DNA from: Paenibacillus sp. RC67 | Lineage (GTDB): Bacteria > Bacillota > Bacilli > Paenibacillales > NBRC-103111 | Length of the DNA stretch: 64,000 nucleotides | Assembly: GCF_030020805.1 (NCBI RefSeq) | Contig: NZ_CP125098.1 | Span: 1,096,001 to 1,160,000, forward strand | Reading direction: 5' to 3' | Shown here: piece after piece, positions 3,227 through 46,459 of the stretch | Numbering within the stretch: the first letter of the stretch is position 1 | Layout of the letters: every line of letters begins with the position of its first letter | Notes under the pieces: generated by a model | Seen by the model: only the letters and a program-made list of their open reading frames with translations | Database searches by the model: none | Told to the model about the DNA's origin: nothing | Position numbers and translations under genes: made by a program

Positions 3227-3243
3227 GGAAAGGATGAATCCAC

Positions 3244-3510: not shown

Positions 3511-3534
3511 AAATAGCGGAAAAGAGGTTAAGTC

Positions 3535-3921: not shown

Positions 3922-3950
3922 ACGTTTTTTTAATTCCAAATCATGAAAAA

Positions 3951-4008
3951 TATCCCCTTCAAGGACAATGCAAGTGTCGATATTCTTATTGATAGCCTGA
4001 AGGGGATA
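3951..4008 (+). repeat. Perfect 11-bp inverted repeat ahead of the terminator
   Basis: TATCCCCTTCA (3951-3961) is exactly repeated as its reverse complement at 3998-4008 with a 36-base loop. It lies in the 3' region of the rhodanese transcript, directly before the terminator. Function unknown; possibly a 3'-end stabiliser. Confidence 0.5.
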
Positions 4009-4010
4009 CG

Positions 4011-4033
4011 AACCGTCCTCGGACGGTTTTTTT
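4011..4033 (+). terminator. Terminator of the repressor-rhodanese unit
   Basis: ACCGTCC and GGACGGT pair around a 2-base TC apex and are followed by seven T residues. Confidence 0.8.
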
Positions 4034-4064
4034 GTTACTTTTTTACTCTACTTTAATCAGTTCA

Positions 4065-4211
4065 TTAGTTGGTTACAATTCCGGTGCCTGCATATTGGGT
4101 GACTGTTGTCGGGATGCTGGACGCGCTATCTACCGAGTAAGAATAAGGAGCGGACGTGAAAGAACCTGTGCGTGAAATTTTGTTGGCTCCGCTGTTTACG
4201 TACACATTATT
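4065..4211 (-). pseudogene. Displaced C-terminal 48 codons of the pectate lyase
   Basis: In a second minus-strand frame this stretch encodes NNVYVNSGANKISRTG and ends YAGTGIVTN before TAA at 4065. This is what a PL1 pectate lyase should have after the point where the main frame stops. It joins the main frame if the A6 run (T6 at 4210-4215 on the plus strand) is read as A5. It is not a separate gene. Confidence 0.8.
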
Positions 4212-5049
4212 TTTTCTCGTTAATGTAGCCGTCGGTGCTGCTGTCTACATTATTTTGAATAGGTGTGGATACAGTGTCGAAGTAGTTGCTCTCAACAAGC
4301 ATTTGAGCATTCATGCGGGAGTGAGCGCCGGTTGAAGCGTTTTTGATGTAGTTGTTGTATACGTGGCCGGTTCCGAAGCGTAAGCTTGGAATACGTGAAT
4401 TGACATTGACGAAGGAATTATGATGGTAGGTCACTTTCAGGTGGCCGGTATCTTCGGAGCTGTTGTTGTCGCTGTGACCGACTAAGGAACCTTTGTAGTG
4501 GTCGTGGAACTTGTTCCAGGATACCGTCACATAGTCAGAGCCGTGGCTAATGTCGAGCAGGCCATCGTAGTAGTCCTTGTCATGAGTTAAATCGCTGGAG
4601 AGGTCGTTATGATCGATCCAGATATGATCGGAGCTATCAATGCTGATGGCATCTGTACCTACAGCCTTAGCGATTTTTAAGTTTTTAATGATAACGTTGC
4701 TGCTGCCTTTGACGCGCAAGCCGCCCCCTGTGAAGCCGGAGTTGGAGCCTACGCCCAGAATCGTTTTGTTGGACTTCACATCCACTTGTCCAGACAGGCT
4801 GAAGTTGCCGTTAACTTTAATAATATATTTGCTGCTAGAAGATGCATACGTTTTGAAATCAGTCAGGTTGGTTACTGTTACTGTTGTACCGCCGGCTCCT
4901 CCTGTAGTTGTTCCATTGACATTGGCATATCCGACCAGACTGTAGTTAGGTGCAGCAGATGCAGCGCCAAAAGAGAATGAGGATACAACAACAGCCAAGC
5001 AAGTAGCTAAAAGTGAATTGCGGATGGACTTTTTCATAAATAGATTCAT
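4207..5049 (-). CDS. Secreted pectate lyase, family PL1 (3' end frameshifted)
   Basis: Cleaves polygalacturonate by beta-elimination outside the cell. A signal peptide (residues 1-32, ending ASA) precedes a Pec_lyase_C right-handed beta-helix with I144-W-I-D-H, DISHGSDYVTVSWNKFHDHYK, and the catalytic-arginine region R219-I-P-S-L-R224. The frame stops at 4207 just after GYINEKK because of an extra A in an A6 run. The missing 48 residues are present in the next frame, so one base restores a full-length enzyme. The AAGGAGG site is 1 base from the first ATG (5049) and 13 from an in-frame ATG at 5037 giving MKKSIRNS; the latter is the likelier start. It converges on the rhodanese unit. Confidence 0.85.
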   Translation of the reverse strand: MNLFMKKSIRNSLLATCLAVVVSSFSFGAASAAPNYSLVGYANVNGTTTGGAGGTTVTVTNLTDFKTYASSSSKYIIKVNGNFSLSGQVDVKSNKTILGVGSNSGFTGGGLRVKGSSNVIIKNLKIAKAVGTDAISIDSSDHIWIDHNDLSSDLTHDKDYYDGLLDISHGSDYVTVSWNKFHDHYKGSLVGHSDNNSSEDTGHLKVTYHHNSFVNVNSRIPSLRFGTGHVYNNYIKNASTGAHSRMNAQMLVESNYFDTVSTPIQNNVDSSTDGYINEKK

Positions 5050-30218: not shown

Positions 30219-31127
30219 TTGAGAAGGAGTTTAGCGATAGTGCTGTTTCTAACGCTTCTCACATCAGTCGTCGGTTGCGGGGAAGTCCACGAGGCCAATA
30301 CCGGAGGCGGAAATACGAGCAAACAGGAGTCTGGGGCGGGTAACGACACCTTAGCTAAGGTGAAGCAGCAAGGCTTCGTTACGGTAGGCTTTGCCAACGA
30401 GAAGCCATATGCTTACAAGACATCCGACGGTGAATTGACAGGAGAAGCAGTAGAAATTGCCCGGATTGTTCTCGACAAACTGGGTATCAAAGAAATGAAG
30501 GGTGAGCTGACAGAATTCGGATCGTTGGTCGGCGGCCTTCAAGCCAAGCGATTTGACATGGTTACGGCAGGGATGTTCATCAACGCTCAACGCTGTCAGG
30601 CGGTTCTCTTCGCTAATCCAGAGTACAGTATTGGCGAAGCCATTGCGGTTCCCACAGGGAATCCTCAAGGACTTCGCAGCTACAAGGACATTGCAGATAA
30701 GAAGGATATGAAAGTCGCCGTCATGACCGGCGCTATTGAAATCGGATATTTGGAGAAGTCAGGAGTTGCGAAGGAGCAAATGGTGCTTGTGCCGGATCAA
30801 GCTTCTGCATTAAACGCTTTACAGGCTAACCGGGCACAAGCCGTTACGATGACGGGGCCTGCACTTCAAGCGATGCTGGACTCCGCTAAAGATAGCAGTC
30901 TGGAGAGGGTCGCAGATTTTGAACAGCCCGTTATAGACTCGAAGAGCGTAAGAGGGTATGGTGCAACGGCATTTCGTCCTGAGGATAAGTCGTTTCAGGA
31001 AGCTTTTAATGCAGAGCTTAAGAAGCTTAAGGACTCAGGGGAGCTTCTTACGATACTGAAGAAATTCGGATTTACCGAGCAGGAGCTTCCTGGGGATTTG
31101 ACCTCTGAAGCTTTATGCAAGGAGTAA
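30219..31127 (+). CDS. ehuB: Ectoine/hydroxyectoine ABC transporter substrate-binding lipoprotein EhuB
   Basis: 302 residues; the lipoprotein signal ends SVVGC (C20), followed by a polar-amino-acid-type periplasmic binding fold. Segments characteristic of EhuB are GFANEKPYAYKTSDGELTGE, TEFGSLVGGLQAKRFDMVTA and FINAQRCQAVLFANP. It binds ectoine or hydroxyectoine outside the membrane for import as an osmoprotectant. Translation starts at TTG (30219), the only start after an in-frame TGA at 30210. It heads an eight-gene run in which import and synthesis genes share one direction with very small gaps, so expression is probably joint. Confidence 0.88.
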   Translation: MRRSLAIVLFLTLLTSVVGCGEVHEANTGGGNTSKQESGAGNDTLAKVKQQGFVTVGFANEKPYAYKTSDGELTGEAVEIARIVLDKLGIKEMKGELTEFGSLVGGLQAKRFDMVTAGMFINAQRCQAVLFANPEYSIGEAIAVPTGNPQGLRSYKDIADKKDMKVAVMTGAIEIGYLEKSGVAKEQMVLVPDQASALNALQANRAQAVTMTGPALQAMLDSAKDSSLERVADFEQPVIDSKSVRGYGATAFRPEDKSFQEAFNAELKKLKDSGELLTILKKFGFTEQELPGDLTSEALCKE

Positions 31128-31128
31128 T

Positions 31129-31782
31129 ATGATTACTTCTTGGATGGAATTTATCCCTCTGCTGATGCAGGGGGCTAAGATAACGGTAGAAATAGCTTTC
31201 CTTTCTTCGGTAGCTGCTGTAGTTGTTTCGCTTGTCACCGGTTTATGCAGGTTATCCAAGCTGAAGATCATACGATTTCTTGCATCGGTGTACGTCGAGT
31301 TTTTTCGGGGAAGTTCGCTGCTTATTCAATTATTTTGGATGTATTTTGCACTTCCGTTCATCGGGATTGAGCTCCCTAAGCTGATTGCTGCGGTTATTGC
31401 GTTTGGATTGAATTACGGGGCTTACGGATCGGAAATTGTGCGCAGCTCCATCGATGCAATTCCTGGTGGTCAATGGGAGGCCGGTAAAGCTCTGAACATG
31501 AAATATCGGCAAACGTTGGTCCACATCGTATTACCTCAAGCCTTCGTTAGAATGCTGCCCCCGTTCGGCAATCTGCTTATAGAACTGATTAAAGGAACAT
31601 CGCTTGTTTATTTTATTACGCTAGCGGACTTAACGTATCAAGCTATGGTGCTAAGAAATAATTACATCTCCTGGTCACCACAAATTTTGGTGCTTCTGCT
31701 TTTGATTTATTTTATTATTGCCTCTCTGGTATCCTTCGTGATGCGTTTTGCAGAACGAAAAATCGCTGCAGGGAGGATGTAA
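31129..31782 (+). CDS. ehuC: Ectoine/hydroxyectoine ABC transporter permease EhuC
   Basis: 217 residues, HisM-type permease with five hydrophobic segments and the cytoplasmic ABC-binding loop (IPGGQWEAGKALNMKYRQTL...IVLPQA). The early segment VYVEFFRGSSLLIQLFWMYF is typical of polar amino-acid permeases of the EhuC branch. Its AAGGAG ribosome site lies inside the end of ehuB, and the ATG comes one base after the ehuB stop, so the two are coupled. It pairs with EhuD to form the membrane channel. Confidence 0.87.
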   Translation: MITSWMEFIPLLMQGAKITVEIAFLSSVAAVVVSLVTGLCRLSKLKIIRFLASVYVEFFRGSSLLIQLFWMYFALPFIGIELPKLIAAVIAFGLNYGAYGSEIVRSSIDAIPGGQWEAGKALNMKYRQTLVHIVLPQAFVRMLPPFGNLLIELIKGTSLVYFITLADLTYQAMVLRNNYISWSPQILVLLLLIYFIIASLVSFVMRFAERKIAAGRM

Positions 31783-31788
31783 AATCGT

Positions 31789-32508
31789 ATGTGGAACTGG
31801 AATTATGCGCTTCAAATCTTGCCTGAGCTTCTAAAAGCATTACAGGTCACGCTACTTGCTACTTGCTGCGGCTTTGCTATTGCTTGTATCGGAGGATTGC
31901 TTCTTGCTCTGGCTGCAGCTTCAAGATGGTTTTTGCTGTCGACCGTATCGCGTTGGCTAGTGGAATTTATTCGCAGCACACCGTTACTGGTACAAATCTT
32001 TTTCTTGTATTATACCCTCCCTAAAATTGCGAATATTTCTTTACCTGCTTTTGCTGTGGGGATCATAGGATTGGGACTGCATTACAGCACTTATATGTCA
32101 GAGGTATATCGCTCCGGAATCGAAGCCGTACCTAAGGGACAATGGGAAGCGGCAGTGGCCTTGAATTTTCCGAAAGTAAAAACATGGGTAACGATTATTT
32201 TACCTCAAGCCATTCCGCCTATTATTCCCGTGATGGGAAACTACTTGCTGGTCATGTTCAAAGAGACCCCTGTTCTATCTGCCATTACCTTGGTTGAAAT
32301 GCTACTCACCGCTAAAAATATCGTATCCGAATCATACCGGGTATTCGAGCCTTATACCATGGTAGGTATTCTATTCTTAATTATTAGTTATCCTGCATCT
32401 GTCCTTATTCGTGTATTGGAAAAACGTTTGAATCTTCAACCGGGTCAACGTTCTACAGGTAAGCAAGCACAAGAAAGCTTAAGCTCTAAGAAGGAGGTGG
32501 GAGCTTGA
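31789..32508 (+). CDS. ehuD: Ectoine/hydroxyectoine ABC transporter permease EhuD
   Basis: 239 residues, the second HisM-type permease: FIRSTPLLVQIFFLYYTLP in the first half and the coupling loop VPKGQWEAAVALNFPKVKTW...IILPQAIPP. Six bases separate it from ehuC, and its stop overlaps the ehuA TTG start (TTGA). The C-terminus carries an unusual polar tail (QPGQRSTGKQAQESLSSKK). Subunit partner of EhuC. Confidence 0.87.
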   Translation: MWNWNYALQILPELLKALQVTLLATCCGFAIACIGGLLLALAAASRWFLLSTVSRWLVEFIRSTPLLVQIFFLYYTLPKIANISLPAFAVGIIGLGLHYSTYMSEVYRSGIEAVPKGQWEAAVALNFPKVKTWVTIILPQAIPPIIPVMGNYLLVMFKETPVLSAITLVEMLLTAKNIVSESYRVFEPYTMVGILFLIISYPASVLIRVLEKRLNLQPGQRSTGKQAQESLSSKKEVGA

Positions 32509-33275
32509 AGCCTATAGTGAAATATTCCGAAGTAAGCAAGTCATTCGGGGATTTGGAAGTATTGAAACAAATTGATTTGGAAATCGCGCCAGGAGAGAAG
32601 CTTGCCATGATCGGTCCAAGCGGTTCAGGGAAAACAACACTGGGAAGAATGCTCATGACCTTGGAGGAACCGACTTCTGGAACGATTGAATTGGATGGAG
32701 AAATGCTCTGGCATATGCAGATCCGTGATCAGCTGATCCGAGCCAACGAAAAGCACCTGCATCGTATGAGGGGAAAAGTGGGGATGGTGTTTCAGCATTT
32801 TAATTTATTTCCTCATATGAATGTACTGCGCAATGTGACGGAGGCTCCGCGTAAGGTGCTGGGGTTGTCCAAGGAAGAAGCAGAAGACAGGGCTGTGACG
32901 ATGCTTGGCAAGGTGGGGCTTCAAGATAAGCTTCATGTGTATCCCGCTCAGCTATCCGGCGGCCAAAAGCAGCGGGTTGCTATAGCGCGAGCTCTAGTCA
33001 TGCGTCCTATGGTCATGGTGTTCGACGAAGTCACCTCGGCTCTGGACCCGGAGCTGGTCGGTGAAGTGCTTGAGGTCATTCGTGAGATTGCAGAAGAGGG
33101 CGACATGGCGATGATGCTGATCACCCATGAGATGGATTTTGCCAAGGAGATAGCTGATCGAGTCGTCTTCGGAGCGGAAGGACGTATCGTTGAACAGGGC
33201 CCTCCTGAGGCTATTTTCGAAAATCCGCAAAGCGAGAGGCTGCAATCTTTTCTCAAAAGATTCCGTTCATCTTAA
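32505..33275 (+). CDS. ehuA: Ectoine/hydroxyectoine ABC transporter ATPase EhuA
   Basis: 256 residues, a complete ABC ATPase: Walker A GPSGSGKTT, Q-loop VFQHFNLFPHM, signature LSGGQKQRVAIARAL, Walker B MVMVFDEVTSALDPE, and H-loop ITHEM. It is of the polar amino-acid class. Translation starts at TTG (32505), eight bases after AAGGAGGTGG, and overlaps the end of ehuD by four bases. It powers ectoine import. Confidence 0.9.
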   Translation: MKPIVKYSEVSKSFGDLEVLKQIDLEIAPGEKLAMIGPSGSGKTTLGRMLMTLEEPTSGTIELDGEMLWHMQIRDQLIRANEKHLHRMRGKVGMVFQHFNLFPHMNVLRNVTEAPRKVLGLSKEEAEDRAVTMLGKVGLQDKLHVYPAQLSGGQKQRVAIARALVMRPMVMVFDEVTSALDPELVGEVLEVIREIAEEGDMAMMLITHEMDFAKEIADRVVFGAEGRIVEQGPPEAIFENPQSERLQSFLKRFRSS

Positions 33276-33305
33276 AAAAACGAGCAGAAAGGAGTGTCCT
33301 GTTCG

Positions 33306-33803
33306 ATGAGTACAGAAGCGGAGATTCGTTATCGCAAGCCTGTCCAAGAGGACGGGAGACACGTGTGGAAGCTTGTAAAGCAAACGGAAACACTCGACGT
33401 TAATTCAGTCTATTGTTATATCCTGCTGTGTGATTATTTCAAGGATAGCTGTATCGTAGCTGAGGATGAGGACGGTATCGTAGGCTTTGTGTCTGCTTTC
33501 CGAACACCGGAGAAGCCCGAGCTTCTGTTTATTTGGCAGATTGCGGTTGCTCCGGATAAGCAAAGAAGAGGGATAGGCAAGAAGCTGCTCAGCGAGCTGC
33601 TGTTAGCGGAATGCTGCAGAGGAATTCGTTATTTGGAAACGACAATCAGCCCGTCGAACCTAGCTTCAAGGGGATTATTTCTGGAGCTGGCCCAACAACG
33701 CGGGCTCGAATGCCGCTTATCTCAAGGATATCCGGCATCCTCATTTCCACAGGAGCACCACCATGAGGAAGAAATTTTGTTTTGTATAGGACCGATATCG
33801 TAG
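33306..33803 (+). CDS. ectA: L-2,4-diaminobutyrate acetyltransferase EctA
   Basis: 165 residues, GNAT fold. It acetylates diaminobutyrate with acetyl-CoA, the second step of ectoine synthesis. EctA-specific features are the N-terminal RKPVQEDGRHVWKLVKQTETLDVNSVYCYILLCDYF (read in parts: residues about 9-45), the acetyl-CoA loop VAPDKQRRGIGKKLL, and TTISPSNLASRGLF. The ATG at 33306 lies 11 bases after AAAGGAG; a GTG at 33294 overlaps that site. It follows ehuA by 30 bases and precedes ectB. Confidence 0.92.
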   Translation: MSTEAEIRYRKPVQEDGRHVWKLVKQTETLDVNSVYCYILLCDYFKDSCIVAEDEDGIVGFVSAFRTPEKPELLFIWQIAVAPDKQRRGIGKKLLSELLLAECCRGIRYLETTISPSNLASRGLFLELAQQRGLECRLSQGYPASSFPQEHHHEEEILFCIGPIS

Positions 33804-33847
33804 AACAGATGTGAACGAAAAAATACATGGATTCTGGGAGGAAACCG

Positions 33848-35140
33848 ATGAAAATGCCTACGCTGGAAATGCCCTCAATGAAAGTTTTTGATGAAATGGA
33901 ATCCGAGGTTCGCAGTTACTGTCGCAGCTTTACAACGGTTTTCGAAAAAGCTAAAAATGCCAAGCTATGGGATAAAAACGGAAATGAATACATTGATTTT
34001 TTTGCTGGCGCAGGAGCATTGAATTACGGGCATAACAATGATCGGATCCGTGAGAAGCTGCTCGACTACTTACTGAAGGATGGAGTTACGCACAGTCTGG
34101 ATATGGCGACAAGCGCCAAGGAGCATTTTTTAACCCGGTTTAACGAGGTGATTCTTAAGCCAAGAAAGTTAAGCTATAAGGTGATGTTTCCAGGACCGAC
34201 AGGTACGAATGCAGTAGAGAGTGCGCTCAAAATCGCTCGTAAGGTGACAGGACGAACAAGCGTAATTTGTTTTACTAACGCGTTTCACGGGATGTCGCTA
34301 GGATCGCTTGCGATAACAGGCAACTCGTTCAAACGTAAAGGTGCTGGCGTGGAGCTAGGGAATGCTGTATTCATGCCGTATGATGGCTACTTTGGCGAAG
34401 GGATGGACACCTCTCGTTACATAGAGAAGCTGCTGGACGATCCGGGGAGCGGAATTAGCTTGCCTGCTGCGGTCATACTCGAAACGGTGCAAGGAGAAGG
34501 CGGACTAAACGTTGCAAGTCAAAAGTGGCTTAGAAGTATAGAAGCGCTGTGCAGAAAAAGAGGGATTTTACTCATCGTGGATGACGTTCAAATGGGATGC
34601 GGACGTACAGGGACTTTCTTCAGCTTTGATGGATCGGGTCTGGAGCCGGATATCGTGTGTCTGTCAAAATCGATAGGAGGATATGGGCTGCCTATGGCAC
34701 TGACGCTGCTAAAACCGGATATCGATCAGTGGAGTCCTGGCGAACACAACGGTACCTTTCGTGGGAACAACCTTGGATTCGTGGCTGCCACTGAGGCGCT
34801 TCGGTATTGGGAAGATGATAGGCTTAACCAAGAGATCGCGATGAAAAGCAGGCTTATACGTACATCCTTGGAGAACATGCTGGCAAGTCGCCCTGAGCTG
34901 CAAGGGGAAATTCGTGGTAAAGGGATGATTCAAGGAATCGCTTTTCGACAGGACGGTATGGCGGAACGGTTGTGTGAACGCGTATTTGCCAGAGGATTAA
35001 TCATGGAAACGTCCGGTCCCCGCAGTGAAGTGGCGAAGCTCATGCCTCCATTGACGATCGGGGGAGAAGAGCTGGATAAGGGGCTGCGCATACTTGCTGA
35101 AGTAATGTCTCAATTGCCGGTTGTTGATGAGAATAAGTGA
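33848..35140 (+). CDS. ectB: Diaminobutyrate--2-oxoglutarate transaminase EctB
   Basis: 430 residues, class III aminotransferase that makes L-2,4-diaminobutyrate from aspartate semialdehyde, the first step of ectoine synthesis. Visible are the family opening [37 protein letters not shown], the PLP-phosphate and ring region ([12 protein letters not shown]), and the PLP lysine K274 in [16 protein letters not shown] is 6 bases before the ATG at 33848. The aspartate semialdehyde comes from general amino-acid metabolism; no dedicated aspartokinase (ask_ect) is present here. Confidence 0.93.
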
Positions 35141-35174
35141 ACCATAATCTTGGATAACAAGGAGCGGATAACCT

Positions 35175-35558
35175 ATGATTGTTAAACATTTGGATCAATT
35201 GGTCAATACAAGAGACGATGTGGATACAACAACCTGGAACTCAAGGAGACTGCTGCTGCGCAAGGATGGCATGGGGTTTTCGATGAATGATACATTAATT
35301 AAAGCGGGTACGGAAACGCTGATTTGGTATCAAAATCATGTGGAGGCAGTCTATTGTGTAGAAGGTGAAGGAGAGATTGAGGTTATCGGCGGGGAAACAT
35401 ACGAGATTAAGCCGGGTATGCTGTACGCACTTGACGGACATGAGAGGCATTTTTTACGAGCGAAATCCCAAATGAGAATGATCTGCGTATTCAATCCACC
35501 GCTAGTCGGGCAGGAAGTACATGATGAAAGCGGAACGTACCCATTAATCAAGGACTAA
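35175..35558 (+). CDS. ectC: Ectoine synthase EctC
   Basis: 127 residues, the usual length. A small cupin enzyme that closes N-acetyl-diaminobutyrate to ectoine with loss of water. It starts MIVKHLDQLVNTRDDV and has the cupin segments WYQNHVEAVYCVEGEGEIEV and IKPGMLYALDGHERHFLRA with the iron-binding Glu, Tyr and His positions of the family. AAGGAGC lies upstream. It follows ectB by 34 bases and ectD by position is next after 13 bases. Confidence 0.94.
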   Translation: MIVKHLDQLVNTRDDVDTTTWNSRRLLLRKDGMGFSMNDTLIKAGTETLIWYQNHVEAVYCVEGEGEIEVIGGETYEIKPGMLYALDGHERHFLRAKSQMRMICVFNPPLVGQEVHDESGTYPLIKD

Positions 35559-35571
35559 GGGAGGAAATCAA

Positions 35572-36477
35572 ATGAAGAGCATGAATGCTGTAAGTGATAC
35601 GAATCAAAGACAGGACCTCTACCCTTCACGAATTTCTGAACGACCTGTCATTATTGAACGTAAAGACCCCGTCGTGTATTCTAAGTGGAGCCCGGCGAGT
35701 GGCATCAGCCAAGAACAGTCGGATTTTTATCATCAGCAGGGTTATTTATTTATTGAATCCTTTTTTACGCCTTCTGAGGTAAAAGAGTATCGAGATGAGC
35801 TGAAGCAACTATGGGCAACGAGTCGTCAATCCGATGCGAGCGAGGTCATTCGGGAACCGGATAGCGAAGAAGTTAGATCCATATTCAACGTTCATCGTAG
35901 CAACGATGTGTTTCAGGCTTTATCAACTCATTCGAAGCTCAAAAACATTGTCGATTATATCCTTGGAAGTCCAACCTATATCCATCAATCTCGAATAAAC
36001 TTTAAACCGGGTTTTACAGGCAAGGAATTTTACTGGCATTCTGATTTTGAAACATGGCACGTCGAGGACGGGATGCCCCGAATGAGGGCTCTGAGTTGTT
36101 CGATTGCGCTGGAAGATAATTATCCGTTTAACGGGCCGCTCATGGTAGTCCCTGGTTCCCATAAGGATTTCGTCGCTTGCGTCGGTCAGACACCGGATGA
36201 TCATTACAAAGATTCGCTTCGGCGTCAGCAATACGGCGTACCTGATCAGGACAGTCTCACTGCATTAGTGAAACAATATGGGATTGAGACTCCTGTGGGC
36301 AAAGCAGGTTCCATCGTCTTATTCGATTGCAACATTATGCACGGGTCGAGCAGCAACATCTCGCCAATGCCGAGAAGCAATGTGTTTTTAGTATATAACA
36401 GTGTTGAAAACAAACTGCAATCGCCTTATTCAGGCCAGCAGCCTAGACCGGAATTTATCGCATCGCGAGATGAATAA
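35572..36477 (+). CDS. ectD: Ectoine 5-hydroxylase EctD
   Basis: 301 residues, Fe(II)/2-oxoglutarate dioxygenase that turns ectoine into 5-hydroxyectoine. The EctD signature is intact: F-Y-W-H156-S-D158-F-E-T-W-H-V-E-D-G-M-P with the two iron ligands, and the third ligand H257 in CNIMHGSSSN. Hydroxyectoine production is usually linked to stationary phase and heat or desiccation tolerance. GGGAGG precedes the ATG. It is the last gene of the ehu-ect run; no terminator is obvious right after it, and the c-di-AMP riboswitch begins about 70 bases downstream. Confidence 0.94.
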   Translation: MKSMNAVSDTNQRQDLYPSRISERPVIIERKDPVVYSKWSPASGISQEQSDFYHQQGYLFIESFFTPSEVKEYRDELKQLWATSRQSDASEVIREPDSEEVRSIFNVHRSNDVFQALSTHSKLKNIVDYILGSPTYIHQSRINFKPGFTGKEFYWHSDFETWHVEDGMPRMRALSCSIALEDNYPFNGPLMVVPGSHKDFVACVGQTPDDHYKDSLRRQQYGVPDQDSLTALVKQYGIETPVGKAGSIVLFDCNIMHGSSSNISPMPRSNVFLVYNSVENKLQSPYSGQQPRPEFIASRDE

Positions 36478-36549
36478 TCGTTAGATCAATCTAAATAAAT
36501 AATTTCTTGATACAAATTGACGCATCCCTGACCGTAGTGTATGATAATA

Positions 36550-36668
36550 ATACGCTTAATTTCCGGTTTATTTATCGGAAAGCGGGGGAACCACTTTTTG
36601 GGGCGAATCATGAAGTATATGTAGGGAACCATCTTTCCCGAGCCCGGCAGCTAACCTCGTCAGCAGTG
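36550..36668 (+). promoter_or_regulatory. c-di-AMP riboswitch aptamer (ydaO-yuaA class)
   Basis: The sequence carries the conserved blocks of the ydaO RNA in order: CGCTTAATTT near the 5' end, AAAGCGGGGGAACCA, TTTGGGGCGAATC, AGTATATGTAGGG, CCCGAGCCC, and CAGCTAACCTCGTCAGC near the 3' end. In known examples c-di-AMP binding causes transcription termination of genes for potassium uptake, osmolyte handling or cell-wall hydrolysis. Here it is followed by terminator hairpins and then a KamA-family aminomutase gene. The aptamer call is from motif recognition and was not folded. Confidence 0.88.
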
Positions 36669-36671
36669 GAT

Positions 36672-36733
36672 GGGTCAACGTTTTTTTATGCATCATTATT
36701 GCATTCATTGACCCGTATTCCGGGTCTTTTTTT
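36672..36733 (+). terminator. Riboswitch expression platform: antiterminator and terminator
   Basis: GGGTCAA (36672-36678) can pair with TTGACCC (36708-36714). The overlapping GACCCG (36710-36715) can instead pair with CGGGTC (36721-36726), which is followed by eight T. The two are mutually exclusive, the expected on/off design. Confidence 0.75.
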
Positions 36734-36746
36734 ATATTGTTGGACG

Positions 36747-36833
36747 GACCCGGTTGATAGCAATTGGACGCCTACGCTGGACTGTGTATTACGGTCGCGG
36801 TGTTATGGCCCTGTTGCTGAACGGGTCTTTTTG
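36747..36833 (+). terminator. Second terminator-like hairpin downstream of the riboswitch
   Basis: GACCCG-GTT..AGCAA (36747-36763) pairs with TTGCT-GAA-CGGGTC (36814-36827), then TTTTTG. The GACCCG/CGGGTC ends repeat those of the first terminator, so the halves could also exchange. Confidence 0.5.
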
Positions 36834-37025
36834 TTGTCGTAATAACCAATAATTATAATTTATTACTTTTTTTGTAATTTGAATCATCATACTAAAGATG
36901 AAGGAGTGATGTGGCAACCCCTTTGAGGGCCTATGATGAGCAGTTCGACGATGAAGTATAGCTCGTGGGAAAAGTAAGGTGAACGTTGTAGTCAAAAAAA
37001 TCTGTCATTCCAAGGAGGATCATCA

Positions 37026-38201
37026 ATGCCGCAACCGAAATATATTACCGATATTAATAAAATCCAGGAAATACCTGAGCAGGACAGAATAAAGCTGCAG
37101 CAAATAACGGATAAGTTCGTGTTTCGCGTGAACGATTATTACCTGAAGCTGATAGATTGGAACGATCCCAACGATCCTATCAAGAAGCTGGTCATTCCGA
37201 ACGAAGGTGAGCTATCTGAATACGGCCGATGGGATGCGTCTGACGAAGATACGAACTACGTAGTGCCTGGATGCCAGCATAAATATAAGACGACGGCGCT
37301 ACTTATTGTATCAGAAGTGTGCGGCGCCTATTGTCGTTACTGCTTCCGCAAACGCTTATTTCGGAATGATGTCAAAGAAGCGATGTCGGATGTCAACCCG
37401 GGGCTAGAGTATATTGCAGAGCACTCTGAAATCAATAATGTGTTGTTGACGGGCGGAGATAGCTTGATTCTTGCAACATCCAAGCTTGCCTCCATATTGG
37501 AAAGACTAAGAGCAATTGAGCATGTGAAAATTATCCGACTAGGTTCAAAGATCCCTGTGTTTAATCCGATGCGAATTTATGAAGATGAGCAGCTGCTCGA
37601 AACCATGCGTAAATATTCCACCGCTGACAAGCGCATTTATGTCATGGCCCACATTAACCACCCGCGCGAAATAACAGAGGAAGCGAAGCGAGGCTTCGAG
37701 GCGCTGCATCAGGCGGGTGCCATTGTAGTCAATCAAACCCCGATTCTCAGAGGTATCAACGACAATCCAACCATATTGGCCGAGCTGCTCGACAAGCTAT
37801 CTTGGGCGGGGGTTACTCCTTATTATTTCTTTATTAATCGTCCCGTTGCGGGGAACCGTGATTTTGTCCTTCCATTATCGGAAGTGTACCGTATTGTAGA
37901 GCAGGCCAAGGCGAGAACCTCCGGCTTAGGCAAAAGAATCCGTTTATCTATGAGCCATACGTCGGGGAAAATCGAGATTCTGGCGATCGAGAATGGCAAA
38001 GCTTATTTGAAATATCATCAATCCCGTGAGGATCATTATGGCAAATTTATGATTATGGATTGCCCGAAGGATGCGGCTTGGTTCGATGATTTGCCTGGAA
38101 GTGAACAACATTGGAAACAACCGACGAAAAGATCGGATACTATAATATCTGTTAACGAGCTTCCCGATATGCCGCAAGGCAGAAGCTTGACCCTCAGCTG
38201 A
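37026..38201 (+). CDS. KamA-family radical SAM aminomutase (lysine 2,3-aminomutase-like)
   Basis: 391 residues. The radical SAM cluster motif is C99-G-A-Y-C103-R-Y-C106, followed by LLTGGDSL. A likely PLP lysine is K315 (HTSGKIEIL). Family enzymes shift an amino group from C2 to C3 of an amino acid. Of the two aspartates that hold the lysine side chain in lysine 2,3-aminomutase, the first appears kept (D246, RGIND) but the second position is R272 (FINRPVAG), so the substrate may not be lysine. AAGGAGG precedes the ATG. Its leader contains the c-di-AMP riboswitch and it follows the ectoine operon, which suggests synthesis of a beta-amino-acid osmolyte; that is inference. Confidence 0.85.
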   Translation: MPQPKYITDINKIQEIPEQDRIKLQQITDKFVFRVNDYYLKLIDWNDPNDPIKKLVIPNEGELSEYGRWDASDEDTNYVVPGCQHKYKTTALLIVSEVCGAYCRYCFRKRLFRNDVKEAMSDVNPGLEYIAEHSEINNVLLTGGDSLILATSKLASILERLRAIEHVKIIRLGSKIPVFNPMRIYEDEQLLETMRKYSTADKRIYVMAHINHPREITEEAKRGFEALHQAGAIVVNQTPILRGINDNPTILAELLDKLSWAGVTPYYFFINRPVAGNRDFVLPLSEVYRIVEQAKARTSGLGKRIRLSMSHTSGKIEILAIENGKAYLKYHQSREDHYGKFMIMDCPKDAAWFDDLPGSEQHWKQPTKRSDTIISVNELPDMPQGRSLTLS

Positions 38202-38222: not shown

Positions 38223-38256
38223 GGAGGTACCTTCCATGAGAGGGTACCTCTTTTTG
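38223..38256 (+). terminator. Terminator after the KamA-like gene
   Basis: GAGGTACC (38224-38231) and GGTACCTC (38243-38250) form a perfect 8-bp stem followed by five T. Confidence 0.8.
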
Positions 38257-39425: not shown

Positions 39426-39471
39426 AACATTATCTCGCAAACGAATGATTAGACAGGAGGTAAGCGCATTC

Positions 39472-40932
39472 ATGAGAATCATCTATTTGGACATCGATTC
39501 GCTTAGACCGGATCATATGGGCTGCTACGGCTACAACCGGAACACAACCCCTAACATTGATAAAATTGCCTCGGAGGGTGTAAGGTTCAACGACTGCTAC
39601 TGCGCATCATCCCCTTGTGTACCTTCGCGCGGAAGCTTTGTATCTGGGCGCTTTGGCATTCATCATGGAGCCTTGACGCATTGGGGACCAGGCGGAGAAT
39701 TCCAGTACCCGGAAGGAGACGGACACAGCAAGGAGATTCCCTTTTTTACCCGGTATTTACGTGAAGCAGGAATGAAAACGGTTACGTTCTCATCCTTTGG
39801 AGATCGCCATCACGCCTGGTGGTATTTTGCAGGGTGGAACGAGGTCCATACTCATACCTTGAGAGAAGGCAATGAAAATGCCGATGAGGTCAATGCCTCC
39901 GTCATTCCTTGGTTGAAACAGCACGGTACAGAAGACAATTATTTCTTACACATCCAGTACTGGGACCCGCATACGTTCTATACGTACCCTATCGAATATA
40001 TGGAGCAGTGGAAAGATGCACCGGTTAAGGCTTTCCCTGATGAGGCTACGATAGCTTCGCAGCAGGAGCACAGCTTCCCTCGCTCAGCCTCCTTCTTGCA
40101 CTGGGGAGACAAATACCCGGCAACCATGCCTGGTCAAATCTCGAACCGCAGCGATTTCAAACATGCGGTAGACGGTTATGACGGCGGGATTAGCTATATG
40201 GATAAACACGTTGGACAACTGCTGGATACACTTCGCGAATTAGGCATCGAAGACCAGGTCTGCTTCATCATTAGTGCGGATCATGCCGAATCCATGGGTG
40301 AGCAGGGCATTTATCTCGAACATGCAAGCGCTACCGAAGCGGTTCACCATCTGCCGCTGATCATCAAGGTTCCTGGAATGCCGAATCAAGGAACGGCAAT
40401 CGACGGTTTTGTCTACAATGTGGATGTCATCGCGACCATTGCTGATATGGCGGGATTGAAGGTGCCGTCCGGTTGGGACGGGAATTCATTCCTTCCTGCA
40501 CTGCAAGGTGAGCATTGGCAGGGACGAGATTACCTAGTGATGGATCATGCGCTATATGTATGTCAAAGAGCTGTACGCGATGATAAGTGGTACTTCATTC
40601 GCACATACCATCCGGGCTTATACCTTCATTTCGATGAAGTCACACTGTACGATATGGTTAACGATCCGAACCAAACAACGAATGTGGCCGAGCAGTATCC
40701 CGATATCGTCAAGGAGATGGATCACCGACTATCCGAGTGGCAGCATGAGCAAGCCCGCAAGCCTGGCTACAAGGTCGATCCGCTTCAAAAAGTAATAGAG
40801 ACAGGTCCTTGGAAATATTTAAGCGTCGACGATTGGATTCGTAGGCTGAATCAGAAGGGCTGGAGCGAGGCGGCTAACCAGCTTCGTACGACTTACTGCC
40901 GGGAAGCCGTTCAGCCGGCTTACGATGGATAA
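39472..40932 (+). CDS. Sulfatase (cytoplasmic) in an SsuCBA-type transporter operon
   Basis: 486 residues, type I sulfatase with D7-I-D9-S metal site, formylglycine motif C49-V-P-S-R (SSPCVPSRGSF) and a C-terminal metal motif ISADHAESMGEQG. There is no signal peptide, so it acts inside the cell. AGGAGG precedes the ATG at 39472. A permease, an ATPase and a binding lipoprotein of the sulfonate/sulfate-ester class follow, which makes sense as import of a small sulfate ester and intracellular release of sulfate as a sulfur source. It is only distantly like the sulfatase at 525. The substrate is unknown. Confidence 0.87.
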   Translation: MRIIYLDIDSLRPDHMGCYGYNRNTTPNIDKIASEGVRFNDCYCASSPCVPSRGSFVSGRFGIHHGALTHWGPGGEFQYPEGDGHSKEIPFFTRYLREAGMKTVTFSSFGDRHHAWWYFAGWNEVHTHTLREGNENADEVNASVIPWLKQHGTEDNYFLHIQYWDPHTFYTYPIEYMEQWKDAPVKAFPDEATIASQQEHSFPRSASFLHWGDKYPATMPGQISNRSDFKHAVDGYDGGISYMDKHVGQLLDTLRELGIEDQVCFIISADHAESMGEQGIYLEHASATEAVHHLPLIIKVPGMPNQGTAIDGFVYNVDVIATIADMAGLKVPSGWDGNSFLPALQGEHWQGRDYLVMDHALYVCQRAVRDDKWYFIRTYHPGLYLHFDEVTLYDMVNDPNQTTNVAEQYPDIVKEMDHRLSEWQHEQARKPGYKVDPLQKVIETGPWKYLSVDDWIRRLNQKGWSEAANQLRTTYCREAVQPAYDG

Positions 40933-40985
40933 GGTTATAGAGACAACGTAGCAAGGCTTTCTGTTGCAAAGCTCTGCAATGTGCT

Positions 40986-41139
40986 GTGAATAAGCAGTGG
41001 AGCGGCGGGATCGTTCTGGAGAAGCGTTAGCGTTCGCCTTTGTCCACGGATTTCAACTAATAAGGTGGAGAAATTCAAGAAATCCGTGGACAACAGTGAT
41101 CGGAAGAATGATCCGCTCGTGCAACGGCGAGCTATTCAC
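40986..41139. repeat. Long palindromic intergenic element (REP/MITE-like)
   Basis: Nested inverted arms: GTGAATA (40986-40992) with TATTCAC (41133-41139); AGCG..GATCGTTCT (41001-41017) with AGAATGATC-CGCT (41105-41117); and a perfect 14-base pair TGTCCACGGATTTC (41041-41054) with GAAATCCGTGGACA (41079-41092). The sequence style resembles dispersed structured repeats I associate with Paenibacillus intergenic regions. It lies between the sulfatase and the permease of the same unit. Confidence 0.6.
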
Positions 41140-41190
41140 CGTTTTTAACGAAGTTGAGCTTTCTCACGAAAGCTCTTAGGAGGTTACATC

Positions 41191-41952
41191 ATGAAAAAAT
41201 TACCACACTGGATGCTTACTTTTATCTCCATAGTGATTGGGATAGCTCTATGGTATCTACTGTCTGCGATACCGGCGGTAGGCGCAATTATTACTAACCC
41301 GACCATCGTCATCAAAACGTTCCTGTCTGAAGCGGCTAGCGGAAGAATGTGGACAAACATAGGAGCGAGCTTGTTCCGGGTATTGGGCGGCTTCTCTCTC
41401 GGCCTGATCGTAGCGATTCCTGTTGCCTTTTTGATGGGCTGGTACAGTGTCATCCGATCAGTCGTGGAGCCGTGGATTCAATTCTTCCGCACGATCCCGC
41501 CTATCGCTCTTATTCCGTTGGTCATTGTAGCTCAAGGGGTAGGCGAATCAGCCAAAATCACCGTTATTTTCGTTTCGACGTTTCTGGTCATGGTTATCTC
41601 GATCTTTCAAGGTGTCCGCAACGTTGATCCAACGTTGATCCGAGCTTCCCGGGTATTGGGAGCGAGAGACAGGGATATTTTCTTTGAGGTTATCGTACCT
41701 GCTTCGTTTCCTTACATTCTGGTCGGCGTCCGGCTCGGTCTTGCAGCTGCCTGGACGACTCTCGTAGCGGCCGAGCTGACAGGTGCGAACAAGGGGCTTG
41801 GCAATATGATTATGGAAGCGAGTCTGTATTTCCGTATGGAGGTCGTTATTCTCGGAATTATCGTTATCGGAATTATCGGCTTGGCAATGGATAAATTGGT
41901 GCTCTTTTTAGAAAGGAGGCTAACCGGATGGCAGGAAGTACGCAACACCTAG
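41191..41952 (+). CDS. ABC transporter permease, sulfonate/nitrate/taurine type (SsuC-like)
   Basis: 253 residues with six hydrophobic segments and the cytoplasmic coupling loop DPTLIRASRVLGARDRDIFFEVIVPASFPY. FFRTIPPIALIPLVIVAQG is the typical central segment of SsuC/TauC/NrtB permeases. GGAGG precedes the ATG. The gene overlaps the ATPase gene by 25 bases. With the cytoplasmic sulfatase upstream, a sulfate ester or sulfonate is the likely cargo, though thiamine-precursor and nitrate uptake use the same family. Confidence 0.87.
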   Translation: MKKLPHWMLTFISIVIGIALWYLLSAIPAVGAIITNPTIVIKTFLSEAASGRMWTNIGASLFRVLGGFSLGLIVAIPVAFLMGWYSVIRSVVEPWIQFFRTIPPIALIPLVIVAQGVGESAKITVIFVSTFLVMVISIFQGVRNVDPTLIRASRVLGARDRDIFFEVIVPASFPYILVGVRLGLAAAWTTLVAAELTGANKGLGNMIMEASLYFRMEVVILGIIVIGIIGLAMDKLVLFLERRLTGWQEVRNT

Positions 41953-42755
41953 ACAAGCAGAGCCATGGAATATCGACAGCGCGCCCCAAAATCGAGATTA
42001 GCCAACTATCGAAAATATATAAGGGGCGAACGGGGGATGTCACGGCATTACAAAATACCGATCTGACGATCGGGCAAAATGAGTTCGTCTGCGTAGTAGG
42101 TCCAAGTGGCTGCGGCAAAACGACTTTGCTCAATATTATCGCGGGACTTGAGGATGCTACGTCCGGTTCTGTGAAGGTGGATGGAGTGGAAGTCAAAGGA
42201 CCTGGTAAGGAGCGCGGTGTCGTATTCCAGCAGTATGCGCTGTTCCCTTGGAAGACCGTACTGAAAAATGTAGAGTTCGGCTTGAAGCTTCGCGGCCTTA
42301 ACAAAGTGGAACGAAGAGAGACGGCGGAAAGATATTTAGAAATCGTCGGGCTCAAAGATTTTGCACACGCTTACCCTAAGGAGTTATCCGGAGGGATGAA
42401 GCAGAGGGTAGCTATCGCGAGAGCTTATGCGGTACAGCCGGAAGTATTATTGATGGATGAACCGTTCGGCGCATTGGATGCACAGACAAGAGCACAGCTT
42501 CAGGAAGAGCTGCTCAAAACATGGCAAACGGAGAAAAAGACCTGCTTCTTCATCACTCATGACGTAGAGGAAGCGGTCATACTTGCTCAAAAGGTCATTA
42601 TTATGAGCGCACGTCCGGGTCGGATCAAGGAAATTATCGATGTGGATATTCCCTACCCAAGAGATCAAGCAACGAAGCTCGACGAACGATTTGTTCAGAT
42701 CAAGAACGAGATATGGTCCAAAGTGTATCGCGAATACCTGGAAGTGGCAAAATAA
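41928..42755 (+). CDS. ABC transporter ATPase, SsuB/TauB type
   Basis: 275 residues: Walker A GPSGCGKTT, Q-loop VFQQYALFPWKTV, signature LSGGMKQRVAIARAY, Walker B LLMDEPFGALD, H-loop ITHDVEEAV. The MSARPGRI segment near the C-terminus is typical of the nitrate/sulfonate/taurine ATPases. An N-terminal polar extension of about 20 residues precedes the domain. Its GGAGG ribosome site and start lie inside the permease gene, so translation is coupled. Confidence 0.9.
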   Translation: MAGSTQHLDKQSHGISTARPKIEISQLSKIYKGRTGDVTALQNTDLTIGQNEFVCVVGPSGCGKTTLLNIIAGLEDATSGSVKVDGVEVKGPGKERGVVFQQYALFPWKTVLKNVEFGLKLRGLNKVERRETAERYLEIVGLKDFAHAYPKELSGGMKQRVAIARAYAVQPEVLLMDEPFGALDAQTRAQLQEELLKTWQTEKKTCFFITHDVEEAVILAQKVIIMSARPGRIKEIIDVDIPYPRDQATKLDERFVQIKNEIWSKVYREYLEVAK

Positions 42756-42776
42756 TTGTATAAAGGAGAGGTTCCT

Positions 42777-43829
42777 ATGTTTCTGAAACGGAAATCATCA
42801 ATTCCTGTTCTGTCCGCTGTGCTCGGCTTAACCCTCTTGCTCGCTGCATGTTCTTCAGGTGGTGCAGGCAGCACTTCTCCGGCTCAAGCTCCTGAGCCTA
42901 ACAAGCCAAGTGGTAAAACACCGACGATCAACGTTGCTTATATGCCCGATATGAATGGTGCAACGCCTATCGTGATCGGGGAGGAGAAAGGCTTCTTTAA
43001 GGAAGCAGGCATTAACGTCAATGCGGTTAAATTTCTGAGCGGTCCTCCGGAATTTCAAGCTATGGCCTCGGGCGATATCGATATTGCTTACATTGGTCCA
43101 GGCGCAACCTTTCTAGCTGCACAAGGCAAAGGACACATCATTGATATTGTTAGCCTTGGCAAAAGTGATATGGTGTTCGCAACGAAAAAGTCCGGAATCA
43201 AGGAATGGAAGGACTTGAAAGGCAAAACCGTTGGTGTACCTAAAGGAACCTCTGGCGAAATGGTGTTGAATCTAGGTCTGGAAAAAGGTGGCCTTAAGCC
43301 TGGGGACGTAAACATTGTCAATATGGATGTAGCAGGAGCCGTATCTGCTTATGTTGCTGGTAAAGTAGATGCTGTTGCCATCTGGTCTCCGTATACGCTT
43401 GAAATCGAGAAGCAGGTCGGCAAGGAAAACATGGTGAAGCTTGGGGATAACAGCGATTTCTTCCCAGATTACATTTTCCCAGCGAGCTGGGTTGTTAATC
43501 CGAAGTTTTTGCAGGAGAAGCCTGAGTTAGTAGAGAGCTTCCTGAAAGCGATTGCCAAAACCACCGACTATAAAATTAAAAATAAAGATGAAGCGGTTAA
43601 AATGACGGCGGCTTATACACAGGTACCTGAGGAGTCATTAAAAATGCAGCTGGATGCTCTGGAGTGGCTCGACAACAAGCGGGTAGCGGATGCATTCAAA
43701 GACGGCTCAGCGAAAAAATGGTACGAAAACCTGGAAAAGCTGTTTGTACAAAATGGCAGCTTGAAGGAAATTACACCGGCCGACAAGTTTTTGATGACGG
43801 CTCCATTTCTTAAAGCTACAGGACAATAA
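42777..43829 (+). CDS. ABC transporter substrate-binding lipoprotein, SsuA/NMT1 type
   Basis: 350 residues. The lipoprotein signal ends LLLAAC, a low-complexity linker follows, then a type II binding fold (INVAYMPDMNGATPIVIGEE, FKEAGINVNAVKFLSGPP, DLKGKTVGVPKGTSGEM). The class binds sulfonates, sulfate esters, nitrate or pyrimidine precursors. AAAGGAGAGG precedes the ATG at 42777, 21 bases after the ATPase stop. It is the last gene of the sulfatase-transporter unit. Confidence 0.88.
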   Translation: MFLKRKSSIPVLSAVLGLTLLLAACSSGGAGSTSPAQAPEPNKPSGKTPTINVAYMPDMNGATPIVIGEEKGFFKEAGINVNAVKFLSGPPEFQAMASGDIDIAYIGPGATFLAAQGKGHIIDIVSLGKSDMVFATKKSGIKEWKDLKGKTVGVPKGTSGEMVLNLGLEKGGLKPGDVNIVNMDVAGAVSAYVAGKVDAVAIWSPYTLEIEKQVGKENMVKLGDNSDFFPDYIFPASWVVNPKFLQEKPELVESFLKAIAKTTDYKIKNKDEAVKMTAAYTQVPEESLKMQLDALEWLDNKRVADAFKDGSAKKWYENLEKLFVQNGSLKEITPADKFLMTAPFLKATGQ

Positions 43830-45766: not shown

Positions 45767-46459
45767 CTAATTATTGCCTCTTACTTTATGAATGAGATGC
45801 TGCACATTCAAATCGCGAAGCATAGCGGTGACTTCTTTGGACCTTTTTTTGTTAAACTTTTTCAGAATCATATTGATCTGCGTTTTGATGGTGGACAGCT
45901 CGACTTGGCGGTGCTTGGCGACTTCGGCAATTTTCATATCTTTCAATAGAAGCTCTAATATTTCTAGTTCGGTCGGCGTCATTTGGGACAATATGATGGT
46001 GGCTTGGAGCAGGCTTTCTTCATTGCGGCGAATACGTGAAAATTCATTTTTAATTTTGTATGAGAACTCCGGTCTAATTTGAACAATCCCGTTGTACGAA
46101 TTGCGTATGCTGGAGATGATGACCTCGGGAGAGCTGGTTTTGAGCACATAATCGACAGCACCAGTTTCAAAAGCGTTAAATACGGTTTCGTCATCCTCAT
46201 GCACCGTCAGAAAAATAATTTTCATATGAGGGTACTGCATAAGCACCTTCTCAGCCGTAATAATCCCGTCGTTCTTCATATCCATTTCAATATCCATGAC
46301 GACGATATCGGCCTGATGCTCCTGCAAATGCTGTAATACTTGTTTCCCGCTTGAGGCTTGTGCGACAACAATCATATCATCCTCACGGCCGATCAACAGG
46401 CAGAAATGCTCACGCAACACATCCAAATCCTCCGCCACAATAATTCGTATCGGGTTCAT
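45767..46459 (-). CDS. NarL/LuxR-type response regulator
   Basis: 230 residues: receiver domain with AEDLDVL acidic pocket, phosphorylated D56 (VVMDIEMDM) and the lysine in DYVLKTSSPEV, then a LuxR helix-turn-helix (MTPTELEILELLLKDMKIAEVAKHRQVELSTIKTQI, read in parts). ATG at 46459 is preferred; a TTG at 46477 directly abuts the kinase stop, and neither has a strong ribosome site. It is cotranscribed with the kinase upstream. Targets are unknown; the next minus-strand unit is separated by a terminator. Confidence 0.88.
   Translation of the reverse strand: MNPIRIIVAEDLDVLREHFCLLIGREDDMIVVAQASSGKQVLQHLQEHQADIVVMDIEMDMKNDGIITAEKVLMQYPHMKIIFLTVHEDDETVFNAFETGAVDYVLKTSSPEVIISSIRNSYNGIVQIRPEFSYKIKNEFSRIRRNEESLLQATIILSQMTPTELEILELLLKDMKIAEVAKHRQVELSTIKTQINMILKKFNKKRSKEVTAMLRDLNVQHLIHKVRGNN

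Follow-up and report, generated by a model that had tools for sequence, protein, structure and literature searches.

A c-di-AMP riboswitch with two terminator-like hairpins, possibly coupled, precedes a KamA-family aminomutase gene in Paenibacillus and its relatives

Introduction

The pairing of a cyclic di-AMP (c-di-AMP) riboswitch with a KamA-family aminomutase has been published once before, for another enzyme and with an expression platform unlike the one described below. In Dehalobacter sp. CF, a tandem Na+-I/c-di-AMP riboswitch lies upstream of ablA, the gene for lysine 2,3-aminomutase (LAM); in the excerpt of the report used here (PMC9337991), high c-di-AMP is proposed to stop ablA and low c-di-AMP to allow it, and eam, the gene tied to beta-glutamate, is named among the genes associated with Na+ riboswitches. 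It was the only report found in our literature search on c-di-AMP riboswitches combined with aminomutases. Here we analyse a kamA-family gene that is preceded by a single c-di-AMP riboswitch aptamer and follows a set of ectoine genes in Paenibacillus sp. RC67. The stretch of DNA analysed, called the window below, comprises 64,000 nucleotides of the forward strand (assembly GCF_030020805.1, contig NZ_CP125098.1, positions 1,096,001 to 1,160,000), and all positions count from its first letter.

The system resembles that of Dehalobacter in having a c-di-AMP riboswitch, there an OFF switch and here one that would work in the same direction, with intrinsic termination, in front of a KamA-family gene with a proposed osmolyte role. 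It differs in that the two terminators of Dehalobacter belong, as far as the same excerpt goes, to two aptamers, act independently and control ablA, whereas the window has one aptamer, an enzyme that curated cut-offs assign neither to LAM nor to glutamate 2,3-aminomutase (EAM), and two predicted terminators with a possible shared coupling helix. One aptamer followed by two intrinsic terminators, which in our case are predicted, is also the layout of Bc1, a cyclic di-GMP (c-di-GMP-I) riboswitch of Bacillus thuringiensis; the part of PMC11218506 available to us describes the second terminator of Bc1 as nearly intact and masking the switch, whereas here a covarying helix would couple the second terminator to the decision made at the first. 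The kdpFABC riboswitch of B. thuringiensis has the same class of aptamer and turns its genes off by intrinsic termination, as the kamA leader is predicted to do, but according to the available portion of PMC6488665 it has one terminator and controls K+ uptake. A search of the literature on dual-terminator riboswitches found no coupled second terminator among the top-ranked matches, and the expression platform, with its putatively coupled terminators, is the new element of the locus.

Our preferred reading, which we hold to be moderately probable, is that c-di-AMP turns kamA off through a platform that relays one decision to two terminators, and that the KamA-family enzyme is an aminomutase whose probable product is beta-glutamate, serving as a compatible solute. 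The evidence on the RNA is presented first and that on the enzyme and its genomic setting thereafter.

One aptamer followed by two terminator-like hairpins

A first-pass annotation of the window had placed a ydaO-class aptamer before a radical SAM gene and after ehuBCDA-ectABCD. This layout was confirmed: the Rfam covariance model RF00379 matched over its whole length and well above its gathering score, the gene product belongs to the KamA family, and the ehu and ect genes pass their curated cut-offs (table 1). As a member of its class the aptamer is unremarkable. It is one of 13 c-di-AMP riboswitches in the genome (7.96 Mb), and no second aptamer was found in the kamA leader, RF00379 being the sole Rfam family to reach its gathering score in the window, and doing so once.

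Five short segments downstream, A to E, can pair with each other in mutually exclusive ways. Segments B and C, with the U-tract that follows, make up the first terminator-like hairpin, T1 (detected by a pattern scan as a GACCCG/CGGGTC hairpin with a strong U-tract at 36710-36726), and D and E with their U-tract make up the second, T2, while A:B and C:D are the alternative pairings. At the level of sequence, two hairpin-plus-U-tract elements follow one aptamer, and the leader may be a dual-terminator one. The exclusive terminator/antiterminator pair of the first-pass annotation does exist in the sequence but is not the whole of the platform, given the second terminator-like hairpin (36746-36828) and the possible pairing between T1 and T2.

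Table 1. Features of the kamA leader and of the genes around it, in window coordinates.
Feature	Position	Strand	Basis or detail
ehuBCDA, ectoine/hydroxyectoine ABC transporter genes	30219..33275	+	NCBIfam TIGR02995, TIGR03004, TIGR03003, TIGR03005, each above cut-off
ectA, ectB, ectC, ectD, ectoine and hydroxyectoine synthesis	33294..36477	+	TIGR02406, TIGR02407, NF009806, TIGR02408, each above cut-off
Sigma-A-like promoter, TTGACG-17-TATGAT	36517..36545	+	pattern scan
c-di-AMP riboswitch aptamer, RF00379	36543..36680	+	cmscan 83.3 bits, gathering score 38, E 7e-18, model 1-134 of 134
Aptamer loop ACCATC	36628..36633	+	complementary to GATGG, the first bases of segment A
Segment A (GATGGGTCAA), first anti-terminator arm	36669..36678	+	leader alignment
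Segment B (TTGACCC), could pair with A (read-through) or C (T1)	36708..36714	+	
Segment C (CCGGGTC), could pair with B (T1) or D	36720..36726	+	
U-tract of T1	36727-36733	+	
Segment D (GGACCCGG), could pair with C (would block T1 and T2) or E (T2)	36746..36753	+	C:D flank covariation
Segment E (ACGGGTCT), forms T2 with D	36821..36828	+	
U-tract of T2	36828-36832	+	
kamA-family radical SAM gene, 391 amino acids	37026..38201	+	TIGR00238; C99-X3-C103-X2-C106, K315 at the PLP-lysine position, R272 at the substrate side-chain site
Terminator-like hairpin 3' of kamA	38238..38252	+	pattern scan

We propose that these elements would work as a relay. With c-di-AMP bound, the aptamer would hold segment A through pairing with its ACCATC loop, leaving B to pair with C and form T1; for a polymerase that had passed T1, C would still be occupied, D would be free for E, and T2 would form, so that the decision made at T1 would be passed on to T2. 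When c-di-AMP is low, A:B and C:D would form, E would be left alone, neither terminator would arise, and kamA would be transcribed. The direction of the response, high c-di-AMP stopping kamA and low c-di-AMP allowing it, is suggested by analogy with known c-di-AMP riboswitches. The role of the loop as a ligand-dependent holder of A is likewise putative and was read from its complementarity to A; ACCATC is present in all 55 kamA leaders that could be parsed for it (of 56), and the loop:A pairing shows no covariation because both of its sides are invariant there.

The leader set used throughout comprises 56 sequences, namely that of the window and 55 of the 80 related loci introduced below; a sequence pattern parsed 52 of them, 42 as T2-bearing. 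Inspection by eye added six further T2 hairpins, three in leaders that the pattern had called T2-less (L074, L083, L107; locus labels are our own) and three in leaders where it had failed (L081, L085, L141), which brings the count to 48 of 56. Six leaders, from the P. tyrfis/ehimensis group, have a broken U-tract in T1 (TTCGTATA or TTTCGATA) and an intact one in T2, as expected if T1 there merely relays the signal.

Transcripts from the sigma-A-like promoter would start at about the first helix of the aptamer. Promoter sites that agree with the consensus at 9 or more of 12 positions lie just 5' of the aptamer in 50 of the 56 kamA leaders, the mean best score being 9.3, compared with 3.0 in shuffled sequences. 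For a kamA transcript starting below the aptamer, the event that the first-pass annotation had named as contrary to its proposal, no conserved promoter candidate was found: a scan beginning after T2 detected sites in 3 of 49 leaders, which is not above the 3.3 that shuffled sequences predict. One of these three, in the near relative L063, is at a place like that of a window candidate (TTGTTG-17-TATAAT, 36831-36859), which was noticed by eye and fell outside the scan. We rejected this candidate, which overlaps the T2 U-tract and whose -10 element reads TATCAT in a 98% identical relative.

Covariation between the two terminator-like hairpins

Because segments A, C and E are alike and so are B and D, complementarity of their cores proves little, and we tested the flanks of C:D instead. 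The test, in which partners were permuted, concerned the four positions that precede C and the four that follow D, none of which had served to locate the segments. The 35 distinct combinations found in the 42 T2-bearing leaders contain 79 consecutive standard pairs as opposed to 29.0 (standard deviation, s.d., 6.4) after permutation (z 7.8), where the permutation counts related sequences as independent, a point to be weighed against the coupling. At flank position 2, all four Watson-Crick types occur (CG 8, TA 7, GC 4 and AT 4 of 35). Position 1 could lengthen T1 as well, in 28 of the 42 leaders, or T2, in 24; when it is left out, the run of pairs amounts to 50, compared with 23.9 (s.d. 5.2) under free permutation and 25.9 (s.d. 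4.9) when permuted within the same position-1 pair, and in neither case did any of 20,000 permutations reach 50. The covariation signal of C:D thus stands without position 1. In terms of length, the C:D extension comprises at least two pairs in 29 of the 42 leaders, one pair in 10 and none in three, and it is zero or one pair long in the seven leaders that have D but lack T2 (L109, L121, L127, L128, L132, L133, L137).

A duplex-energy test gave p<=0.05 for C:D in 28 and for D:E in 25 of the 56 leaders, against 2.8 expected; its limitation by base composition is the reason for our reliance on the flanking positions. Among the 55 kamA leaders with a recognisable T1 (56 examined), 17 pass for both C:D and D:E, 29 for C:D and 25 for D:E. 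The corresponding numbers for other c-di-AMP riboswitches of the same family (39 examined after removal of one clipped locus, 14 with a recognisable T1) are 0, 1 and 3, this control resting on 14 leaders of which three pass D:E alone.

The principal alternative is that the locus carries an ordinary c-di-AMP riboswitch with T1 as its one working terminator, T2 being a passive back-up whose likeness to T1 stems from local duplication of the GACCC/GGGTC arms. It is favoured by the strong U-tract of the window T1 and by the published Bc1, whose second terminator masks the ligand response according to the available part of PMC11218506. Two further observations fit it and weigh against the relay: T2 is absent from eight of the 56 leaders (the seven listed above and L116), and the C:D extension is limited to one pair or none in 13 of the 42 T2-bearing leaders (none in L069, L075 and L082), in four of which (L088, L091, L098, L123) T2 looks self-contained. 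The relay also has to contend with the weaker signal obtained when only Watson-Crick pairs at positions 2-4 are counted (42 of 105 against 27.5, p 0.0015, or 30.0 when stratified, p 0.005). A duplication, however, leaves the C:D extension unexplained, as it covaries beyond the shared cores and shrinks to one pair or none where T2 is missing, and if T2 were passive, kamA would be transcribed less in every condition. On balance we regard the single-terminator explanation as unlikely.

The energies of the two arrangements speak for the relay: in the window leader they are near balance (read-through -57.9, stop -59.9 kcal/mol), and the gap stays within 8 kcal/mol in 36 of 42 leaders. Equilibrium folding, in contrast, counts against it. 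For window RNA starting at 36663, T1 reaches 0.98 at the T1 point even with A free, and A:B together with C:D wins once D has been transcribed; with A held, the full platform gives 0.72 for C:D and just 0.27 for T2, so the OFF state is not reproduced by equilibrium folding alone. For leaders that start at A, the value of A:B is above 0.5 in 53 of 55 while C has yet to be made, and in 24 of 55 once it is there. These results imply that the proposed mechanism must be largely co-transcriptional, with kinetics doing much of the work. If the relay is real, it would show how an RNA sensor with a single aptamer can shut a gene off in two steps and with little leakage; its comparative signature is clear, and there are natural variants in which T2 is lost or T1 only relays.

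Some minor features of these leaders may be recorded here. Between T2 and kamA, several Cohnella leaders (L076, L084, L102, L105, L114) share a conserved palindromic stretch, GGATTCGTTCTCGAATTC, just 5' of the kamA ribosome site, and the P. hemerocallicola-like leaders L015, L019, L022 and L026 share a mid-leader stretch, GGGGATCACATAGAT, with an upstream C run, possibly a further hairpin. A small mid-leader open reading frame with a GTG start near 36914, noticed by eye in the window, was dismissed, as frames in relatives do not look alike. Elsewhere in the genome there is a tandem pair of c-di-AMP riboswitches (L044, G000:C1:7215722-7216222) with a terminator-like hairpin, seen by eye, after each; 77 such tandem doublets are reported in the accessible part of PMC9481103.

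Aptamer and kamA persist together in relatives

The genome of the window has one KamA match (E<=0.001). Matches occur in 66 of 104 genomes of the same family (E<=1e-20), many of them only 29-36% identical and lysine-mutase-like, and in 93 of 296 genomes of the order (E<=1e-60), about one third, a few being fragments or paralogues of 40-61% identity. A comparison of the riboswitch-kamA linkage in relatives, called for in the first-pass annotation, was carried out on two overlapping sets of loci. In the first, the 30 best loci including that of the window's own genome, an aptamer was found within 1.5 kb upstream of kamA in 27 (all except L024, L033 and L035). In the second, the best 80 of 214 relatives, searched with a model derived from 20 aptamers of kamA leaders and five others, 56 loci have an aptamer just upstream (that of L077 is cut off by the contig end). 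The remaining 24 comprise 16 Bacillaceae records, mostly alkaliphiles such as Halalkalibacter and Anaerobacillus, and eight Paenibacillaceae, and an Rfam search of 13 of these 16 Bacillaceae loci gave no c-di-AMP match. The gene neighbours of kamA are otherwise poorly conserved, the next largest cluster being present in 13 of the 80 loci; since the other neighbours vary while the aptamer stays, aptamer and kamA are the unit that persists.

Two observations concern additional copies. A paralogue 52% identical to the window KamA (L163, G022:C46) has its own c-di-AMP aptamer at 46022-46164, about 240 nucleotides 5' of the matched region. Broken or fragmentary kamA genes occur in three genomes (G038, G048, G050), in the first two on the same contig as an ectoine synthase gene, while G050 also has a full-length copy.

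Identity of the enzyme

The window KamA is placed in the KamA family by TIGR00238 (227 bits, cut-off 199.2) and falls short of every more specific model: EAM, TIGR04368 (224.9 of 650 bits), LAM, TIGR03820 (214.2 of 525.4), AblA_like_2 (215.9 of 396.25), EpmB, for EF-P lysylation (197.0 of 369.3), and arginine 2,3-aminomutase (196.3 of 600). Going by curated cut-offs, it thus belongs neither to the lysine 2,3-aminomutases nor to the canonical glutamate 2,3-aminomutases. It was aligned with 12 proteins above the glutamate mutase cut-off (L142-L153) and two above the lysine mutase cut-off (L154, L155). The CX3CX2C cluster (C99, C103, C106) and K315, which align with their counterparts in LAM and EAM, are invariant in 22 of 22 relatives, and R272 in 12 of 12 and 22 of 22. 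The LAM motif YYIYQCD corresponds to YYIFHAK in EAM and to YYFF(I/V)NR in the window clade, and VDAP...GK of LAM to INAP or LNAP...GK in EAM and L-(S/C)MSH...GK in the window clade, with some variation in distant paralogues.

In the alignment, R272 and S308 of the window KamA occupy the places of Asp293 and Asp330 of LAM, which we take to be the residues binding the side chain of lysine, and EAM has Lys at the position of R272. Work attributed to Lepore in 2005 and to Ruzicka and Frey in 2007 is said to have assigned this role to the two aspartates and to have found Lys and Asn in their places in EAM. The enzyme is therefore like EAM in being a radical SAM protein of the KamA family with a cationic residue where LAM has a lysine-binding Asp, and unlike EAM in its low TIGR04368 score and in having Arg for Lys and Ser or Cys for Asn. 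Its identity to the 12 EAM examples is 30.5-33.9%, and in a phylogenetic tree its clade is set off from both EAM and LAM by a long branch, a kind of branch about which the program warns. The predicted structure has a mean predicted local distance difference test score (pLDDT) of 77.7 and a predicted template modelling score (pTM) of 0.80, with low confidence in the cluster-loop region, and its best fold match is lysine 2,3-aminomutase 2a5h (E 8e-24, 31% identity).

This match to the closest solved structure, the family assignment and the published c-di-AMP riboswitch on ablA (PMC9337991, as excerpted) are what speaks for a lysine 2,3-aminomutase making beta-lysine or N-acetyl-beta-lysine, like the product of the Dehalobacter gene. 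Against it stand the missed TIGR03820 cut-off, the replacement of both aspartates and a search for ablB that gave no match in the window's genome, whereas two LAMs of related genomes score 642.6 bits with TIGR03820 and keep the aspartates. A lysine mutase is thus highly improbable, and N-acetyl-beta-lysine, one of the osmolytes named in the first-pass annotation, was rejected as the product on the same three grounds. The other one named, beta-glutamate, fits better: it is the better guess in view of the cut-offs, the change from Asp to R272, the lack of an ablB match and a glutamine-synthetase-like gene next to kamA in four relatives. The sequence points most plausibly to an acidic substrate, in the simplest case glutamate, and the cationic R272 would suit a side-chain carboxylate.

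In the P. tyrfis group (L025, L027, L028, L032, L034, L036, L037), a GTG in frame with kamA follows an AAGGAG ribosome-site-like motif within the last 60 bases of the leader (by eye), and a possible N-terminally extended form of KamA may be encoded there.

Osmolyte genes and other neighbours of kamA

Genes for ectoine synthesis (ect), Opu-type transporters or BCCT transporters lie within about 5 kb of kamA in 12 of the 80 loci, compared with none of 40 control loci of like size (Fisher p 0.006), although all controls come from eight kamA-bearing genomes and the marker proteins were drawn from kamA loci, which favours the latter; both features of the comparison temper the osmolyte reading. The neighbours are ect in L062, L064, L075, L087 and L116, ect with Opu and BCCT in L070, Opu in L066, L104, L109 and L121, Opu with BCCT in L082, and BCCT in L125. 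The ect genes are variously upstream, downstream or divergent, so the association may have more than one origin. Within the order, a hand count with no correction for kinship, taken only as support, put kamA in 29 of the 56 genomes whose EctC match was strong (>180 bits) and in 64 of the 240 without one; in eight of the 29 (also a hand count), kamA and the EctC gene are at most 10 kb apart on one contig, with kamA broken in one of them (G048).

The glutamine-synthetase-like gene mentioned above is directly 3' of kamA in L078, L079, L096 and L100, and the L078 protein reaches 442 bits with GlnA (cut-off 429). All four loci lack the aptamer, which is a further point against the proposed link to c-di-AMP; they may represent a beta-glutamine operon under other control. 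In the portion of a review at hand (PMC1224877), glutamine synthetase is described as turning beta-glutamate into beta-glutamine in Methanohalophilus portucalensis, and beta-glutamate as occurring together with hydroxyectoine in Nocardiopsis halophila.

A divergent HemL-like aminotransferase gene is found beside kamA in nine of the 80 loci (L101, at 2258-4547, and at like places in L106, L113, L122, L131, L135, L138, L139 and L140), all from alkaliphilic Bacillaceae and all without the aptamer; in several of the nine, a HexR/RpiR-like regulator is encoded there as well, together with a fused TRAP transporter, and the function may be uptake and breakdown of a beta-amino acid.

These nine loci are among the arguments for yet another possibility, that the enzyme uses some other acidic or a non-lysine substrate, or serves beta-amino acid metabolism of the cell wall or of catabolism, its osmolyte link being indirect. 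The same possibility is favoured by the failure to reach any equivalog cut-off, by the long branch apart from EAM and LAM, and by the secreted proteins encoded downstream of several other c-di-AMP riboswitches of the genome (translations judged by eye). It has to be set against the recurrence of ect, Opu and BCCT neighbours, the glutamine-synthetase-like next gene in four loci and the fit of R272 to a side-chain carboxylate, and we find it rather doubtful.

The suggestion of the first-pass annotation that a second osmolyte pathway may be under c-di-AMP control is supported by the comparison of loci, both by the retention of aptamer and kamA and by the osmolyte genes nearby. A fuller proposal, which we advance tentatively and with less than even confidence, would combine the two halves of the argument: one aptamer would govern two terminators through the exclusive pairings loop:A, A:B, B:C, C:D and D:E, a chain that would store the first decision and impose it a second time about 100 nucleotides on, with T1 serving only as a relay in some species, and the gene would encode a new kind of glutamate 2,3-aminomutase providing a c-di-AMP-controlled beta-glutamate (in some species beta-glutamine) osmolyte pathway beside ectoine in Paenibacillaceae. 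If the enzyme assignment is true, a substrate would be named for a KamA subfamily present in about a third of the sampled genomes of the order, and a bacterial beta-amino acid osmolyte would join the c-di-AMP regulon.

As to the remaining surroundings of the gene in the window, the terminator-like hairpin behind kamA suggests that it may be transcribed on its own. Farther downstream, at 39445-43829, a gene of the sulfatase family precedes those of an ABC transporter whose binding protein is NMT1/OpuAC-like; they may serve the use of sulfonates or sulfate esters.

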